Shown: positions 26,587-57,856 of the stretch, in pieces
How positions within the stretch are numbered: the first letter of the stretch is position 1
Layout: the number at the start of each line of letters is the position of its first letter
Source: Candidatus Bathyarchaeota archaeon
Lineage (GTDB): Archaea; Thermoproteota; Bathyarchaeia; Bathyarchaeales; Bathycorpusculaceae
Direction of reading: 5' to 3'
Assembly (NCBI GenBank): GCA_026014545.1
Contig: JAOZIH010000006.1
Location: forward strand, 1 to 64,000
Length of the DNA stretch: 64,000 bases
Notes under the pieces: model-generated
Told to the model about the DNA's origin: nothing
Databases searched by the model: none
Seen by the model: the letters and a program-made list of their open reading frames with translations, nothing else
Translations under genes and position numbers: made by a program

Positions 26587-26605
26587 CCCTCTATAGGTTT
26601 CTGCA
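26587..26605 (+). repeat. dispersed repeat, copy 1
   Basis: Nineteen bases here (CCCTCTATAGGTTTCTGCA) recur exactly, in inverted orientation, at 57684-57702. Homology extends outward through TAGAC with a 2-nt length difference. Both copies are intergenic and lie near a CTGCATAGAA motif. The origin is unknown. Confidence 0.55.
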
Positions 26606-26673
26606 TAGAATCGCTAATAGGCGCCAAATATGATGGGGAAGATGTGTAGACTAAAAAGGTGGTTTTTGTGGTG

Positions 26674-46049: not shown

Positions 46050-46153
46050 TGCCGAGGGCCGGGTTTGAACCGGCGACAACTCGGTCTTCAGCTTCGCTCT
46101 CAGCCGCACGAGGCAACTGAGTCGAGCGCTCTCCCAGGCTGAGCTACCTCGGC
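46050..46153 (-). tRNA. tRNA-Phe (GAA) with 30-nt intron at non-canonical position
   Basis: On the minus strand: acceptor GCCGAGG/CCTCGGC, D arm GCTC/GAGC, and T arm GCCGG-TTCAAAC-CCGGC. The anticodon loop is C-T-GAA-G-A with 3' stem CCGAG. The matching 5' stem CTCGG is complete only if 30 nt at 46093-46122 are removed between positions 30 and 31. This is not the usual 37/38 site. CCA is not encoded. A GTTTATATG box about 40 nt upstream lies in the end of the next gene. Confidence 0.9.
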
Positions 46154-50435: not shown

Positions 50436-50630
50436 ATGCCTGAAACACACAGAAAACTCCACGAAACACAACAACAAACACCTGCTTCTCACCAGCAAAC
50501 AAAAGGGGTCTGTCAAAGTCCTTCTTCATCTTCCCCGTCAGACTGGGACGGCGACATCATCCCCCGATGTTTTAACAACGTCCCCCACTATTTTAAATGT
50601 AATGCTCTGGATGAAAAAGGAAGCATATGA
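50436..50630 (+). CDS. candidate small leaderless host ORF broken by the insertion
   Basis: A TATA-like TAATATAAAAA about 25 nt upstream puts transcription start on this ATG. The frame is Gln/Ser/Pro-rich (MPETHRKLHETQQQTPASH...). It passes through the left repeat of the integrated element in the +2 frame relative to the integrase. Joined to the right flank, as before insertion, it would stop just after the repeat and give about 45 residues. It may be a real small gene, or only a transcribed leader that today could read into the integrase fragment. Confidence 0.3.
   Translation: MPETHRKLHETQQQTPASHQQTKGVCQSPSSSSPSDWDGDIIPRCFNNVPHYFKCNALDEKGSI
50543..50566 (+). repeat. left attachment repeat (attL core)
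   Basis: These 24 bases (starting CTGGGACGGCGACATC) recur exactly at 56285-56308 in the same orientation. To the right, after 12 unmatched bases, CGTCCC at 50579-50584 pairs with GGGACG in the repeat. The repeat lies in frame in the integrase gene. Confidence 0.9.
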
Positions 50631-51459
50631 AGATTCAACAATCAAGGCAACAGCGAAGAGATTAAAACACCTGCAAAAGAATTGCCATTTAGCAGACCCA
50701 GAAAGCGTAAAAATATTCGTAGCAAACAAGAAATGTAGCAACGCCTTCAAGGAATGCCTAATAGAAGTTTATGACATATTCATGCGCTCAATGGGACAAC
50801 AATGGAACAAACCATTCTACGCAAGATACGACAAGCTCCCAAAAATACCAACAGAAGAAAAAGTAAACATGCTCATATCACAAGCAACACCACGCATGGC
50901 ACTCATACTATCAATGTCAAGAGACTTAGGCTCAAGACCCATAGAACTCACATGGCTAACAGTCGCAGACATCAACCTACAAAACGGAATAGTCAACATA
51001 ACAGGCGCAAAACACACCATAGGAAGAAACGGAAAACTCAAACCAAACACCTTAGAAATGCTCAAACAGTACATCAACAAAAAACACCTGAATGCAAATG
51101 ACAGACTATTCCCAACCGAGTCAGAAAACATAAGCGAAGCCTACCGCAGACTCAGAAACAGATTAGCCGAAAAACTCCAAGACCCAACCTTCAAAACAAT
51201 ACGACTCTACGACTACAGACACTTTAAAGCCTCAATGGAATACCACAAAACCAAAGACCTACTATACATCAAACAACTCTTAGGACACAAAGACCTAAGA
51301 ACCACACTGCGCTACACGCAACTACTTGAAAACTTGGGAAACGATGAATACACCTGCAAAACAGCCAAAAACATCACCGAAGCCACCAACCTAGTAGAAA
51401 CAGGCTTTGAATACGTCACCGAAATGGACGGAATTAAAATCTTCCGAAAACGCAAATGA
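50602..51459 (+). CDS. int: tyrosine integrase, C-terminal (catalytic) fragment
   Basis: A 285-residue fragment with the complete catalytic core: first Arg in SRDLGSRPIELTW, Lys-containing beta-hairpin ITGAKHTIGRNGKL, RLYDYRHFKAS for the HxxR box (the usual His is Tyr or Asp here), LLGHKDLRTTLRYTQ with His and the nucleophile Tyr. The tail ends FEYVTEMDGIKIFRKRK, as in thaumarchaeal/bathyarchaeal integrases. The frame is open upstream to 50410 through the 24-bp repeat but has no start codon there, so ATG 50602 may be only an internal Met. The missing first 25 codons are at 56233. Confidence 0.9.
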   Translation: MLWMKKEAYEDSTIKATAKRLKHLQKNCHLADPESVKIFVANKKCSNAFKECLIEVYDIFMRSMGQQWNKPFYARYDKLPKIPTEEKVNMLISQATPRMALILSMSRDLGSRPIELTWLTVADINLQNGIVNITGAKHTIGRNGKLKPNTLEMLKQYINKKHLNANDRLFPTESENISEAYRRLRNRLAEKLQDPTFKTIRLYDYRHFKASMEYHKTKDLLYIKQLLGHKDLRTTLRYTQLLENLGNDEYTCKTAKNITEATNLVETGFEYVTEMDGIKIFRKRK

Positions 51460-51592
51460 AAATAAAAACAACCTTTTTTCTATCAACATTTATGCTTCAG
51501 CCATTAGCACATGACCTAGTTAAAACTATTAACAAAGAGCCTTATGTGAGAATGTAAGGAAAAACGGCATCCCAAGTTTAAAGGAAAAGCAA

Positions 51593-52363
51593 CTAGACAT
51601 TGAAAGGTATGTTTTCGGCGACAAATTTTCTTCCAGTATCAGTAATGAAGTAACGGTCACCTTCTCTATGGACATACGCCTTTTCGTGCTCAAGCTTGCC
51701 TAAAGTTAAGTTCATGTAACCCGTCTGAATCCTGTTTGCAAGCCAATGATTCAATTCTTTAACTGTAGCTCCTTCAGAACCACGATAATACAAAAAAGCC
51801 AAAATTTTTTCTGGCAGTTTCAGCTCTGGCTTCAGTATCTTCAAAAATCCATTAAAATCCTGAATCAAAGGAATTCTGATTTTCACCAAAGAATTAACCA
51901 AATTCTGAGCAGTATTAATGTCTGAAGTATAATAGATTCTTATGAATTCAGTCATGACCCAATTACAGCAAACCAATGAAAGTGTAGCATCCATAGAATT
52001 TGAATCAACATCACCGCCGACATGACCGACATCACGTTTATTTCTAATGTCATAAATAACTTGTAAGGTTCTAGGAATCTGAATTCTGATAGATACTGGA
52101 AACTTGTCTTTATCGGCTTTTTCAAGCTCTAAAACTTCATTTCTGAAATTAACTATTGCTTCCCCTAGTGGAATATATTTTCCTATAGTGACTTGCTGAA
52201 GCATTCTAAATGCGACTTCTGCAAATCTTCCCCCTTCAGAACAGCATGGTCTGTGCTTGCCAAGATAATAATGCTCATTCGCCAATTGATACGACTCGAA
52301 TAGTTTGTCAAGCAACTCTTTACTAAAAGTCTGCTCAAGCTGCTGTCTTATCTGCTGTAACAT
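51593..52363 (-). CDS. element cargo protein, unknown, helical with winged-helix end
   Basis: A 256-residue protein. The first ~165 residues are helical (LLDKLFESYQLANEHYYLGKHRPCCSEGGRFAEVAFRML, then YDIRNKRDVGHVGGDVDSNSMDATLSLVCCNW), a pattern like HEPN/abortive-infection-type helical bundles with R-N-x-x-x-x-H. Here RNKRDVGH fits that R-x4-6-H motif. The rest is a winged helix (KILAFLYYRGSEGATVKELNHWLANR, then YFITDTGRKFV). Its ATG overlaps the upstream gene by 29 nt. A HEPN-type RNase/defence role is suggested only by the motif. Confidence 0.55.
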   Translation of the reverse strand: MLQQIRQQLEQTFSKELLDKLFESYQLANEHYYLGKHRPCCSEGGRFAEVAFRMLQQVTIGKYIPLGEAIVNFRNEVLELEKADKDKFPVSIRIQIPRTLQVIYDIRNKRDVGHVGGDVDSNSMDATLSLVCCNWVMTEFIRIYYTSDINTAQNLVNSLVKIRIPLIQDFNGFLKILKPELKLPEKILAFLYYRGSEGATVKELNHWLANRIQTGYMNLTLGKLEHEKAYVHREGDRYFITDTGRKFVAENIPFNV

Positions 52364-52907
52364 TTTCCTTTCTCGGCAAGTCGTGTTCTACAAGGTTTAT
52401 GCCAGTAGTCGTAATACTGCATCGAATGGGGTTTTCTTTAACTTCAACATAACCTTTGAGTCTTTCGGCGTTGCGGAATGTATCGGGTATGCTCGGTATT
52501 CTTGCTCCAACTTCATTGTAGCACGAGACTGCATGACCCGCTTGCATTTCTCCTATTCCAAGATATTTATCTAAGTAATATGCAAAGAGCGTTATTTTCT
52601 CCATGTTGGTCTTAGGATTCTTGCTTTTGAAGAGGTCTTTTAATGCTGGTTTCTCGTTTCCTTTCGCTTTAAGGTCCAACGGAATCGGGGGGATTCTCTG
52701 AACAAGTCCTGCTCCTCTTTTTCTCTTTTGTTTGCCTTTTCCTGCTAGAGCAGTTGTAACCTCTTGAGTCGATGTTGTCGTGGTGAATCCTGAACTCTGA
52801 ATGTCCTTTTTGAATGCGTCAAGATATTTGGTTACGAAGGCTTCGCTTCCTTCTAGCTCGATTGTTCCTTCTTTCAGGTTTATTTTCGCTTTCGTGACTA
52901 CGCTCAT
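52335..52907 (-). CDS. element protein with KINLKEGTIELEGSE-type domain
   Basis: A 190-residue protein. The start at ATG 52907 is supported by GAGG and a TATA-like GCATATATTC upstream. The N-terminal segment MSVVTKAKINLKEGTIELEGSEAFVTKYLDAF recurs, from memory, in thaumarchaeal and bathyarchaeal proteins of unknown role. A basic linker (GKGKQKRKRGAG) precedes a helical C-terminal domain (LKDLFKSKNPKTNMEKITLFAYYLDKYLG) that ends like a winged helix. It may bind DNA or interact with the overlapping downstream protein. Function unknown. Confidence 0.55.
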   Translation of the reverse strand: MSVVTKAKINLKEGTIELEGSEAFVTKYLDAFKKDIQSSGFTTTTSTQEVTTALAGKGKQKRKRGAGLVQRIPPIPLDLKAKGNEKPALKDLFKSKNPKTNMEKITLFAYYLDKYLGIGEMQAGHAVSCYNEVGARIPSIPDTFRNAERLKGYVEVKENPIRCSITTTGINLVEHDLPRKENVTADKTAA

Positions 52908-53154
52908 TGCATTTAAACCTCTAGTTTCAGGAATATATGCATGAGCAAATATATATCTTGTCTCCATGGTTGCACTTGAAATAGAAGCTCGGTTAATAGG
53001 ATTATATGAGACGAGTTATTGTTGAACAGCAAACAACATAACAAAAGTCACACAACTAATAGAAAATGGATTTAGATACCTCAGAGAAACGGACAGAGCA
53101 AAACTATTTAAAAGCGCAAATAAACTCCTTATTTTTCTTTATCCACAACATACA

Positions 53155-53213
53155 CGGCGCGTCGCTCCGCTTGCGCGCCGAACGTTCCGCGCAAAGCCAA
53201 ACGTTACGCAAGA
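53155..53213 (+). repeat. GC-rich hairpin plus paired AACGTT repeats
   Basis: CGGCGCG (53155-53161) pairs with CGCGCCG (53174-53180) around a 12-nt loop. Two direct 14-mers of form GCC-R-AACGTT-N-CGC follow at about 53178 and 53195. It is a GC island in an A/T-rich intergenic stretch of the element; a replication origin or terminator is possible. Confidence 0.5.
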
Positions 53214-53257
53214 AAGACTTTCAACTGACGAAAATAACGAACTATAGTATTGTGAAA

Positions 53258-53740
53258 CTATCCACCATGATATTTGGCTATGTAGTCTAACGCTTTTTGT
53301 GTGACTTGCCATGTTCCATTTTGATATTTGAGGAAGTCTTGTTTCTCCAGTCGTTTCATGTAATCATCAAACCCGTAACCGCCGAGAACAACTACTCGGC
53401 TTTGACGTTGCCAATAATCGTATTGCTGCCTCAAAAAATCAGTTGTTCTGGGTGTTTGGCATAAGATTGCTATGTGCCTCGCATCTTCAAAATCCAAAAT
53501 ACAGCTTTCACGTTTTCTAATTCTCCCTACTGAGTAAATCAGAATGACAATCACAGGCAACAGTACCAGAACGACATAAACTGAAACGGAAGATGTTAGA
53601 AAATTATTCAGAGTAGCCCAGAAAGCTACTTTTCCCAAAGCGTCAAATATGGTAAGCAGGGATACGATAATTCCCAGTATTGTTCCTATGGCTAACACAA
53701 TTTTCCATAGTCGGCTATCCCACATCGACTTTTTAGGCAT
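53258..53740 (-). CDS. element membrane protein with C-terminal winged-helix-like domain
   Basis: A 160-residue protein with two membrane helices (about 11-30 and 48-70) and a cytoplasmic part of about 85 residues. That part (DARHIAILCQTPRTTDFLRQQYDYWQ, then YDDYMKRLEKQDFLKYQNGTWQVTQKALDYI) looks like a winged helix. Membrane-tethered DNA-binding proteins of this size occur on archaeal plasmids. No family recognised. Confidence 0.55.
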   Translation of the reverse strand: MPKKSMWDSRLWKIVLAIGTILGIIVSLLTIFDALGKVAFWATLNNFLTSSVSVYVVLVLLPVIVILIYSVGRIRKRESCILDFEDARHIAILCQTPRTTDFLRQQYDYWQRQSRVVVLGGYGFDDYMKRLEKQDFLKYQNGTWQVTQKALDYIAKYHGG

Positions 53741-53818
53741 TCAATTCACTCTTTTTTCTATTGGTTTTTCACTTTTTAAAGATTTGGCAGATGAAGAAGA
53801 ACTGCAGGTCTTCCAATT

Positions 53819-54133
53819 TTATAATGAGATTTCTTCACCATTCTCTAAATTTTCCTCAGAAACAAAACCAAGCGGTATAGAACCTAAACTTCTAAAGAAG
53901 CTGTTAACAAATTGACAAACGGTAACGCGCTCAAGATAACCAAAACCTTCCTTAAATTCAAACATGCCTATATTATAAACGCACATTAAATCATCCCAAA
54001 CCTTAACCGCTTGAAAATAAATAATATACGGAACAGTAAACAAGCCATTACGCTCCACAAACTTCGTGCAAACCTTTCCAAGCTTAATTTTATTCCATTC
54101 ACGCTCAATTCTGCGCCTAAATTGGCGATTCAT
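53819..54133 (-). CDS. small element protein overlapping rep
   Basis: A 104-residue protein if ATG 54133 is used (MNRQFRRRIEREWNKIKLGKV). An earlier in-frame start at 54202 would overlap rep much more. With the chosen start the overlap is 17 nt, a typical translational coupling. Mixed alpha/beta composition (FVERNGLFTVPYIIYFQAVKVWDDL); no motif recognised. It is probably part of the replication operon. Confidence 0.55.
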   Translation of the reverse strand: MNRQFRRRIEREWNKIKLGKVCTKFVERNGLFTVPYIIYFQAVKVWDDLMCVYNIGMFEFKEGFGYLERVTVCQFVNSFFRSLGSIPLGFVSEENLENGEEISL

Positions 54134-55148
54134 AGCTACCGCTACCCCGACTAAACTTTCTCTCAGCGACAACTTCCCAAAGAGGTTCACCTTTATCCCC
54201 AAACATGCTCACTATTGCACCACGACGAGAAATCGACAATTCAGAAAAAACACCTAAATAACGAACACGAACCAACTCAGAAGCGCACAAAGGACACTTA
54301 TGTTTTATACCAACATCTTTCCCATTAATCAAATGCAACTTTCGATAGGAGCAAACGCCAAACCATGTAGCAGCATGAGACTTCTTAACACCACGCTTTA
54401 TGCTTGAATGGTTGAGCTGATACCAAGCAGTACCGCCAACCGTCTTGCGCTTCTCCAAAACCCTAACAATCCAACCATCCTTCTTATTCTCACGCCTCGT
54501 TACGCCCTCAAACCCGCCACAAGCGTAACAATCCGCACCCTTACAACGCCTACACTTGCCATAGCCTTCACCACCAACAAACCCCAAAACGTGAAAATGA
54601 GGATTCCAATACCAACCAATAGGCAAGCCAGTTTCACGACTTACATGCCTATTACGATAACGAAAAGCATGAAAAATCATAGAGCCACCAATCACACCAC
54701 GATTAGAAAGAATCTTGACAGCCCTTTTGCGTAGAGCCTCAAGACTCGAACCGTACTCTTTCTTAGGCACGGACACAACAATATGTTCGACTAACCCGAA
54801 ACGCTTGGAAGCCTCTTGCAAACGCTTCTCCATGCGAGTAGCCTCTCTCACAGCCCAACCATACTTAAAACAAACGGGGCACGTTGGTTTATCGCACGAC
54901 TGATAAACAGACCTAACATACACAGAATCCTTAGGCAAATCAGGATAAAACCAACGAACTTGATTATGCAATTCAACATTCAAACACCCCTCAAACCGCT
55001 TAAACTTGCCACACTCAGAATTAGTCTGCTCACCATGACCAACCAGCACATACTCTCCATAACTCCAGAAGTCATCTCGCACTTCAAGCTCAGGAGCAAC
55101 CCCGCCGTAACTCTGTTTACATAATGTCGGAATCACGTTTAACCACAA
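54117..55148 (-). CDS. rep: HUH-type rolling-circle replication initiator
   Basis: About 344 residues. The HUH motif is clear (NPHFHVLGF), and the downstream GGTAWYQLNHSSI supplies the candidate catalytic Tyr. Zinc-ligand clusters surround it: CDKPTCPVCFKYGW, CRRCKGADCYACGG and CPLCASELV. This is the architecture of plasmid Rep proteins in haloarchaea and other archaea, which nick one strand at the origin. Start is uncertain: the frame is open to 55235, but that crosses the HTH gene and its operators. TTG 55148 or GTG 55136 are likelier. It is divergent from the HTH regulator. Confidence 0.85.
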   Translation of the reverse strand: MWLNVIPTLCKQSYGGVAPELEVRDDFWSYGEYVLVGHGEQTNSECGKFKRFEGCLNVELHNQVRWFYPDLPKDSVYVRSVYQSCDKPTCPVCFKYGWAVREATRMEKRLQEASKRFGLVEHIVVSVPKKEYGSSLEALRKRAVKILSNRGVIGGSMIFHAFRYRNRHVSRETGLPIGWYWNPHFHVLGFVGGEGYGKCRRCKGADCYACGGFEGVTRRENKKDGWIVRVLEKRKTVGGTAWYQLNHSSIKRGVKKSHAATWFGVCSYRKLHLINGKDVGIKHKCPLCASELVRVRYLGVFSELSISRRGAIVSMFGDKGEPLWEVVAERKFSRGSGSYESPI

Positions 55149-55154
55149 AGGATA

Positions 55155-55191
55155 TGTAGCTACTGTCCGTATTTTCCATTGTGTAGCTACT
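55155..55191. promoter_or_regulatory. twin TGTAGCTACT operators between rep and HTH gene
   Basis: Two identical 10-mers, TGTAGCTACT at 55155-55164 and 55182-55191, each contain the palindrome GTAGCTAC and lie 27 bp apart. The second touches the ATG of the HTH gene, and both lie in the rep promoter region. Confidence 0.6.
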
Positions 55192-55758
55192 ATGTCGAAC
55201 CGAAAAGACCATAAAGCCATGGAGAGAAGAGACAAAATCTACAAATTGGTGCTACAAAGTAGCACGAAAGGCATCAGAGCTATTGAAATCGCAAGCAAAC
55301 TCCAAATTCATAAAACCGTGGTTTACCGCGACCTCAATTCTCTTTATCTCATGGGAAAAGTTGAAAGTGACCAAGGAATATGGCGTGCAAAAACTGGAGA
55401 GCAAACTATTCAACCCTTGGAAAAGGAGATTGTGATAGAACTCCCAATACCAAAGAATGAATGGCAACGATTGGCACTTCTAGAACATTTTGCTAGGGAT
55501 TGGGAAGAACATTTTCCGAATGATAAAAATAATGCATACCGAATCAGCCTTGAAAAATTCAATGAAACAAGAACTATAAAGATAAAAGGCAAAAATGTAG
55601 ATGACATCGATTTAGAGAAGATAGGAACCCTCATCCACCAAGCTATTCAGAAAAGCTCTGCATTCAGCTTCAAAGGACTTATCAAAGGTCTTAGGAAATC
55701 ACTCCCTATTAGTAGTGCAATCGACAACGAAAAAGGCAAAGATGCAGACAAGCAGTAG
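55192..55758 (+). CDS. winged-helix regulator of the element
   Basis: A 188-residue protein. The N-terminal winged helix (RRDKIYKLVLQSSTKGIRAIEIASKLQIHKTVVYRDLNSLYLMGKVE) is followed by a charged C-terminal domain of unknown fold (ALLEHFARDWEEHFPNDKNNAYRISLEKF). ATG 55219 is an alternative start that would clear the operator repeats. Its position opposite rep, next to twin palindromes, suggests a copy-number or rep repressor; that is inference. Confidence 0.75.
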   Translation: MSNRKDHKAMERRDKIYKLVLQSSTKGIRAIEIASKLQIHKTVVYRDLNSLYLMGKVESDQGIWRAKTGEQTIQPLEKEIVIELPIPKNEWQRLALLEHFARDWEEHFPNDKNNAYRISLEKFNETRTIKIKGKNVDDIDLEKIGTLIHQAIQKSSAFSFKGLIKGLRKSLPISSAIDNEKGKDADKQ

Positions 55759-55840
55759 AAACATAAATCCAAGCTTCGGAAGAAAAACTCCATTAAGTAC
55801 TTTTCTTTAGGGAAGAAAAGCTACCAAAAGAACCCAGCAA

Positions 55841-55978
55841 TTACCAAGAATTGCCCAGCGCGCAAGAAAAACACGTGCCCTTGCGCTCTGGAACAGACCA
55901 CTTGTGCCCTCTCTTACAGTGAAGGGCAACGCAGTCAAAGACCAACACAGGAATGACACACAGCCAACACAACGTCAT
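55841..55978 (-). CDS. 45-residue zinc-ribbon micro-ORF (candidate)
   Basis: The frame ends CVALHCKRGHKWSVPERKG followed by C-x2-C (TCFSC). This C-x4-C...C-x2-C spacing with GHKW is the look of a short zinc ribbon, so it may be a small DNA-binding protein of the element. A longer version would start at 56035. No ribosome site is evident. Confidence 0.4.
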   Translation of the reverse strand: MTLCWLCVIPVLVFDCVALHCKRGHKWSVPERKGTCFSCALGNSW

Positions 55979-56036
55979 TTCCTCAAAAACCACGCTTTTC
56001 CCACTCAAAGCGCCCTCTGCTCTCGCAGTCCTCAAG

Positions 56037-56089
56037 GTAAACTTTTCCCTTCTGTTTCAGCCAGAAGGTCGTCCCGACTAAAAGTTTAC
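56037..56089. repeat. nested hairpin, candidate replication origin
   Basis: GTAAACTTTT (56037-56046) pairs with AAAAGTTTAC (56080-56089), and inside it CCTTCTG (56048-56054) pairs with CAGAAGG (56062-56068). It lies in the ~470-nt non-coding end of the element, a likely place for a double- or single-strand origin of rolling-circle replication. Confidence 0.5.
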
Positions 56090-56232
56090 TCTCTCGGAAC
56101 GGGCGCACGGAAGGGACGCATATCAATCCCAACAAGGAATGATGAAAAATGATAAGCCAAAAACAGCGCGAAAAAATCTAAATACCCAAATCAAACAATT
56201 GAGAGAATACCCAGCAATGGGAGAGATGAACA

Positions 56233-56361
56233 ATGAGTGAAGAAACAAGAAAAGAAGAACCAAAAGAATTACTTTGCCCTAAGGCTGGGACGGCGACATC
56301 ATCCCCCGCTATTAAAATAGCGTCCCAGTCTAATATGAATATTGTCAACGTAACGCTGTGA
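56233..56361 (+). CDS. int: integrase N-terminal fragment left at right end
   Basis: The frame begins MSEETRKEEPKELLCPKAGT and, after the 24-bp repeat, runs into chromosome and stops at 56361 (42 codons). Before it are a TATA-like AAATCTAAATA (about 56170-56182) and GGGAGAG, so it owns the promoter and ribosome site. Up to the repeat (25 codons) it is in the same frame as the integrase remainder at 50.6 kb. Joining the two across the repeat gives one continuous 322-codon gene. Confidence 0.75.
   Translation: MSEETRKEEPKELLCPKAGTATSSPAIKIASQSNMNIVNVTL
56285..56308 (+). repeat. right attachment repeat (attR core)
   Basis: Exact copy of the 24-bp left repeat. Here the following chromosome sequence contains CGTCCCAGTCT (56321-56331). 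With the left chromosomal flank (AGACTGGGACG, 50540-50550) this forms an 11-bp perfect inverted repeat in the reconstructed empty site. Confidence 0.9.
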
Positions 56362-57468: not shown

Positions 57469-57856
57469 ACAATTAAAGATGCTGGTACAGCCGGACCAAG
57501 TTTCAAGGGAAAGGCACTAATTTTCTTGAAGTATGCTGATATATCAGCGTTGCTTGTGCCCCTTGCTTATGCGCCAAACGTTATGTTCAAAACGGTTTCT
57601 ACTTGGTAATTGCAATTTTAGGTAATAGCACATATCCAAGCAGCATAAAGTGCCTTCATATTTGGCGGCTGATAGAGATTCATTGCAGAAACCTATAGAG
57701 GGTCTATTCCGGGGCGCTGGCACAGCCGTCGCTGCATAGAAACTAGTTTCGCTAAGCAGTGGTTCTCCACGGTACTCTGCGTTTATTTTTCATAAAATTT
57801 TTATATCTGATGGGTTTTGCTTATGCATATATCAGCTATTGGAACACGGTGTTGTA
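57469..57856. other. intergenic with dispersed repeat and LSm promoter
   Basis: No gene is seen. It contains a GCGCCAAACGTT motif at about 57570 (compare the AACGTT repeats of the element), the dispersed repeat at 57684-57702, and a TATA-like TTTTTATATC near 57800 for the LSm gene. Confidence 0.45.
57684..57702 (-). repeat. dispersed repeat, copy 2 (inverted)
   Basis: Reverse complement of the 19-mer at 26587-26605, exact. A CTGCATAGAA motif follows at about 57732, as it does beside copy 1. Confidence 0.55.

Follow-up and report, generated by a model that had tools for sequence, protein, structure and literature searches.

A 5.74-kb bathyarchaeal plasmid probably integrated into a box C/D-like small RNA gene, with division of its own integrase gene

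The DNA analyzed here (the window) is a stretch of 64,000 nucleotides, positions 1 to 64,000 of contig JAOZIH010000006.1 of Candidatus Bathyarchaeota archaeon (assembly GCA_026014545.1). It contains an element of 5742 bp that is bounded by a direct repeat and carries an integrase gene interrupted at that repeat. The repeat coincides with the 5' half, in antisense orientation, of a gene of about 61 nt with the architecture of a box C/D small RNA (sRNA). All comparisons are based on metagenome-derived assemblies; the window's own genome (1.86 Mb, 41 contigs) is labeled G000, and the labels L### and G### denote loci from relatives and genomes of relatives, respectively.

The direct repeat and the divided integrase frame

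The perfect 24-bp direct repeat CTGGGACGGCGACATCATCCCCCG occurs at 50543-50566 and 56285-56308, with a spacing of 5742 bp. No further copies were found in the 1.86-Mb genome with up to three mismatches allowed, and by arithmetic about 1e-7 pairs of identical 24-mers are expected by chance in 7 kb. The two copies are interpreted as the cores of the left and right attachment (att) sites, attL and attR, and the features of the two ends are as follows.

50543..50566, forward strand: att core repeat at attL, with the element to its right (repeat search)
50543..56284, no strand: integrated element with one repeat counted, 5742 bp (repeat spacing; empty sites of related elements in related genomes)
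50545..51459, forward strand: C-terminal part of the integrase, 304 codons from the repeat, no upstream start (frame analysis, PF00589)
56171..56225, forward strand: integrase promoter-like AAAAAATCTAAATAC and ribosome-binding-site (RBS)-like GGGAGAG (sequence)
56233..56308, forward strand: N-terminal part of the integrase, ATG and 18 codons, then 7 inside the repeat (frame analysis)
56266..56284, forward strand: AATTACTTTGCCCTAAGG, conserved DNA motif adjoining the core at attR, probably an integrase arm or att sequence
56285..56308, forward strand: att core repeat at attR (repeat search)

From the repeat, the left integrase frame extends over 304 codons and ends with a stop at 51459; its catalytic domain matches PF00589 (E=2.9e-12). 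It is also open for 45 codons upstream of the repeat, none of which is ATG, GTG, or TTG. At the right end, ATG 56233 shares the frame of the integrase, the translation being MSEETRKEEPKELLCPKA and then GTATSSP. The repeat interrupts the frame at neither end, only the right end provides a start codon, and joining of the two parts yields an integrase of 18+304 = 322 codons. The N-terminal part is very short (about 25-37 aa), and a TATA-like sequence is also present in the corresponding region of other attR ends. We predict that attP, the att site of the circular form, is located within the 5' part of the integrase coding sequence, so that insertion would separate the promoter, the start, and the first codons from the rest.

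An earlier note on this DNA had described an integrated plasmid that cuts its own integrase gene at a non-tRNA site. The coordinates and spacing of the repeat, its single reading frame on both sides, the left frame without an upstream start, and the 322-codon product were all borne out. Of the right-end start region, the ATG and an RBS-like GGAG at about 56220 are present, but about 17 full codons precede the repeat, and the 25 that had been counted are reached only if the repeat is included. Similarly, no tRNA gene was found at the integration site in the window, but the locus is not an anonymous one, the repeat being part of a conserved box C/D-like sRNA gene.

Reading frames and phylogeny of related integrases

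Related integrases or attR-type ends at the sRNA gene were found in at least 15 other genomes, and same-contig att pairs, 0.85 to 22 kb apart, in ten further genomes, some of the pairs being decayed and one (L119) weak. Nine split pairs could be compared, namely the window, L113, G055, G067, G184, L135 with L219, and the tRNA-targeting L006, L007, and L008; among these, G184 has TTG only, the L113 integrase is broken further on, and the G067 integrase is mostly N-masked. The start-bearing frame at attR is the frame of the integrase in all nine pairs, three of them in tRNA genes, which argues that the gene reads through att. The core itself is read in different frames, as GTATSSP in most loci, DGYIIPH in L165, and GRHHHPP in L135. 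At attL of L165, an in-frame ATG (MSVWDGYII...) for the otherwise headless integrated integrase comes from the host flank.

Conservation of the AATTACT..AAG DNA motif next to the core extends across these different frames and to places that have no ATG; of the five attR ends that belong to elements with an own-start integrase or with none (L116, L117, L118, L121, L122), four lack ATG in every frame. Since the motif is conserved even when non-coding, an att arm is the better reading. The earlier note had suggested checking whether the first 37 residues are conserved; at the protein level this was rejected, as different frames are used to read the att DNA and the adjacent motif is conserved as DNA.

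An integrase that is not split at all could start at an internal ATG (50602 or 50611), the 25-codon frame at the right end being fortuitous and open because the att DNA is conserved. The conservation of the core and the adjoining motif as DNA, the lack of conservation in the N-terminal sequence, and a nested branch of integrases that start after the core all agree with such a gene. We nevertheless consider it unlikely, since the start-carrying frame is the integrase frame in 9/9 split pairs, which represent three genomic targets and two frames. Moreover, the start in own-start relatives is about 25 residues ahead of MLWM, in several with a Shine-Dalgarno (SD) sequence, and not at MLWM itself, whereas ATG 50602 has no SD sequence and the corresponding Met is Val or Thr in relatives.

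In the integrase tree, the sRNA-targeting integrases form one clade (support 100/99), with the window integrase among the split forms. The own-start branch (support 100/100) is nested inside this clade. Its members L116, L117, L122, L175, and L200, of which L116 is too short for the tree, begin at a start of their own 75-83 nt past the core, which in several cases has an SD sequence; splitting is therefore not universal in the clade. In L117, L122, L175, and L200, the own-start open reading frame (ORF) remains intact upon integration but is parted from the promoter on the attR side. We infer a polarity in which splitting looks ancestral and the escape from splitting derived.

Split-integrase elements in tRNA-Thr and tRNA-Ala genes are located at L006:9930-14039, L008:9933-14034, and L007:62-10692; the L007 contig is labeled Clostridiales, probably due to a binning error. 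The window's genome also encodes a separate SSV-type (PF16795) integrase at G000:C24:7465-7932. The proposal that the plasmid cuts its own integrase gene stands as far as the separation of the start part is concerned, given the nine of nine pairs and the empty sites described below, but this is not peculiar to the present site, as the same is seen at the tRNA-Thr and tRNA-Ala genes.

The predicted sRNA gene, its putative promoter, and empty sites

The features of the sRNA gene at the two ends of the element are as follows.

50505..50565, reverse strand: box C/D-like sRNA target gene, complete at attL, GGGG-AUGAUGU-12 nt-CUGA-8 nt-AUGAAGA-10 nt-CAGA-CCCC (covariance-model match, E=2.9e-12; box parse)
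50588..50598, reverse strand: TATA-like box from the element, for the sRNA at attL (promoter profile)
56285..56307, reverse strand: truncated second copy of the sRNA 5' half, at attR
56309..56361, forward strand: remnant of an older integrase start (ASQSNMNIVNV, then stop), as in L113 and L142 (sequence comparison)
56329..56339, reverse strand: TATA-like box on the chromosome side, now probably driving the truncated sRNA copy only (judged from position)

The 23-nt core, GGGGGAUGAUGU-n-GCCGUCCCAG in the sRNA orientation, is present in 110 of the 257 genomes of the class, with no matches for the reversed control, and the conserved second half follows wherever the core is not at an attR end. The DNA surrounding the core matches provided 102 complete sites with 94 distinct sequences. 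Almost all of the latter (93/94) can be parsed as GGGG, box C (AUGA[UAC]GN), exactly 12 nt, box D' ([CA][CU]GA), 4-12 nt, box C' (AUGANGA-type), 10-14 nt (mostly 12), box D (C[AG]GA), and CCC[CU], with a GGGG/CCCC terminal stem. Upstream are an A/T-rich TATA-like block at -30 to -24, about 27 nt upstream, and an A-rich element at -35 to -33. Among the 128 Bathyarchaeia-class genomes that are at least 90% complete, 80 are matched by a covariance model, and in 77 of these 80 there is exactly one match. By these sequence criteria, the conserved sequence of about 61 nt is organized like a box C/D sRNA gene. It shares with archaeal box C/D guide sRNAs the box order, the guide length, the terminal stem, and the TATA promoter, and differs from them in box D (CAGA versus CUGA), in its absence from Rfam, and in having no target in the rRNA examined.

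The target might instead be a conserved intergenic DNA site, such as a promoter or a recombination site, and not an RNA gene. Two negative results speak for this: Rfam contains no family matching the sRNA at the site, and the conserved guide has no consistent match in the scanned 16S/23S loci, which came from G050, G057, and G000. The predicted sRNA is apparently a conserved orphan in Bathyarchaeia. Still, an intergenic site is quite improbable: over about 61 nt, the conserved columns fall exactly at boxes C, D', C', and D, the 12-nt guide is present in 93/93 parsed sequences, a terminal stem is present, and the distance to an archaeal TATA box is constant. Recombination half-sites would not account for the conserved second half outside the repeat.

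In tRNA-targeting elements, the incoming DNA restores the 3' end of the tRNA; an insertion into the sRNA gene, by contrast, has to supply an antisense gene with both its 5' end and its promoter. The best match to a promoter profile, built from other sites, is within -2 to +1 nt of the expected place at 18 of the 19 integrase-bearing attL sites, and therefore the 5' coding DNA of the integrase also carries a putative sRNA promoter on the opposite strand. The decayed integrase start beyond attR of the window indicates that the site was occupied earlier, and in the window's lineage the sRNA promoter is probably element-derived.

Both occupied and empty sites were found in related genomes. For the G055 element, the left flank at one end and the right flank at the other align on both sides of a single undisturbed site in G057, and the flanks of the G184 element likewise align to single sites in G188 and G189. 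Between the empty genome G066 and its sisters G063 (attL) and G069 (with an integrase), 90-94% of the left flank is shared up to the core. In G140, a genome of the same genus as the window's, the left neighbors (HSP20 and others) are the same, with 77% identity over 2.3 kb up to the core end, and no integrase is present there. The empty sites that the earlier note proposed to look for in related genomes are thus available for related elements (G057, G188, G189, G066). A segmental duplication or assembly artefact, for which one could cite the fragmented genome (41 contigs) and other att pairs in contigs with an odd layout (G055, G067, G184; at least one of them N-joined), is hardly credible given the identical layout in many independent genomes, with empty sites.

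In three contigs (G055:C1, G067:C1, G184:C1), attL and attR are far apart and oppositely oriented. Since runs of N occur at the site in the G067 contig, the join order may be arbitrary, and these layouts were given no weight; integrase-driven inversion is possible in these three genomes. Contigs often end within about 350 bp of the att site or the integrase start (for instance, L007, L019, L029, L134, L145, L160, and L163), a pattern that coexisting integrated, excised, or multiple copies in the sampled population would be expected to produce.

Proposed integration and comparison with known systems

We suggest, with a probability of about 0.82, that a 5.74-kb rolling-circle-type plasmid was integrated by its own tyrosine recombinase into the sRNA gene, splitting its own integrase gene. 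The attP site would be the 24-bp core in the 5' end of the integrase gene, and its other strand would correspond to the first half of the sRNA gene, the chromosomal attB. Integration would leave the integrase promoter, the RBS, the start, and the first approximately 25 codons at attR and the remainder at attL, with an intact gene in the circle only and a presumably silent one after insertion. The incoming DNA would bring the sRNA 5' half and a TATA box, so that the sRNA gene at attL, if transcribed, would be whole under a plasmid-borne promoter, and the native promoter would be left with a dead half copy at attR. The element would be locked in after insertion, later excision requiring an integrase supplied in trans, which the intact integrases of relatives may provide.

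Several observations weigh against this interpretation, in addition to those named with the alternatives. The first 37 residues of the joined integrase are not conserved as protein among relatives, and some integrated relatives (L165, L124, L128) have a possible start on the host side. The TATA score at the window attL is moderate only (p about 0.1), the right flank of the empty site in G140 differs from that of the window, and a search of IMG/VR for the free form gave no attP-type contig.

The other genes of the element are as follows.

51593..52363, reverse strand: ORF of 256 aa, no family match
52335..52967, reverse strand: ORF of 210 aa, no family match over cut-off
53258..53740, reverse strand: ORF of 160 aa, no family match over cut-off
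53819..54202, reverse strand: ORF of 127 aa, beside Rep also in L117, L122, and L175 (sequence comparison)
54117..55235, reverse strand: Rep-like protein, HUH motif PHFHVLG and WYQLNH (motifs)
55192..55758, forward strand: HTH_11 DNA-binding protein, 188 aa (domain match; 57% identical protein in the L122 element)

The conserved part of the Rep-like protein begins at about residue 44-51, so its true start is later. Its homologs are 67-71% identical in L117 and L122 and 49-50% identical in the tRNA-Thr-targeting L006 and L008, and the PHFHVLG-type and WYQLNH motifs are kept in the window protein and the aligned proteins of four relatives. It has no match over cut-off in Pfam, PHROG, or NCBIfam and none in PLSDB; a single-sequence structure model (mean pLDDT 36) was too poor to use. 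The predicted gene content fits a rolling-circle-type plasmid. Elsewhere in the window, a dispersed repeat of about 50 bp (87-89% identical) is present at 57655-57707 and 26587-26631 and also in L115, L119, and L138, and a tRNA at 46050-46153 on the reverse strand, matched by Rfam and not by ARAGORN, is probably intron-containing.

In the suicidal (Type I, SSV-type) integrases of SSV, pTN3, and pT26-2, attP is inside the integrase gene; they carry the Phage_integr_3 domain (PF16795), a single origin has been proposed for them, the described examples target tRNA genes, and excision of the SSV2 and pTN3 elements by intact integrases in trans has been reported (PMC8371274). The window element resembles them in the split into a start-bearing N-terminal part and a catalytic C-terminal part and in the exact direct repeats at both ends. 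As the start-bearing attR frame is the integrase frame in nine pairs, these integrases can be called suicidal, that is, Type I and SSV-like in mechanism, with a gene that would be intact only in the circle and a predicted attP core inside the integrase frame. They are outside the SSV/pTN3/pT26-2 clade on the two points tested: the integrases of the window, L003, L006, L007, and L008 match PF00589 and not PF16795, and the target of the window element is an sRNA gene and not a tRNA gene.

A close comparison is with L006, L007, and L008 in tRNA-Thr and tRNA-Ala genes, whose integrases are 43-45% identical to that of the window and follow the same split logic. L006 and L008 also share with the window element the AATTACT..AAG motif beside the core and a Rep that is about 50% identical. 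However, all three target the 3' end of the tRNA gene on the same strand as the integrase gene, whereas the window element targets the 5' end of the sRNA gene on the opposite strand. Thaumarchaeal elements integrate in tRNA genes, intergenic regions, and protein genes, with short att repeats; non-tRNA targets are thus used there as well, but neither an sRNA-gene target nor promoter replacement is mentioned in the text that was searched (PMC6563490). The non-tRNA targets known for archaea comprise intergenic sites and protein genes, and our searches of an open-access library gave no report of an sRNA gene as attB. Splitting as such is a known mechanism; what looks new is the use of an sRNA gene as the target, the supply of the sRNA promoter by the plasmid, and a separate lineage of integrases.

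On balance, we favor a broader view, held with less confidence than the integration itself, that a conserved box C/D sRNA gene serves a family of archaeal plasmids as a standing integration site and is rebuilt each time, with the plasmid's own promoter swapped in. The host sRNA would then be under successive plasmid-derived promoters, and the integrases would form a self-splitting lineage apart from those of SSV, with one branch escaping via a start downstream of att. The known targets of site-specific integration would then include a further class of RNA gene, and the analysis exposes a conserved, apparently orphan sRNA of Bathyarchaeia without an Rfam match. Because the target is entered from its 5' (promoter) side on the opposite strand, the same plasmid DNA must serve both as integrase codons and as an sRNA promoter. 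Finally, a second, apparently separate lineage of self-splitting integrases, with split and un-split sisters, would make the persistence of suicidal integrases testable.

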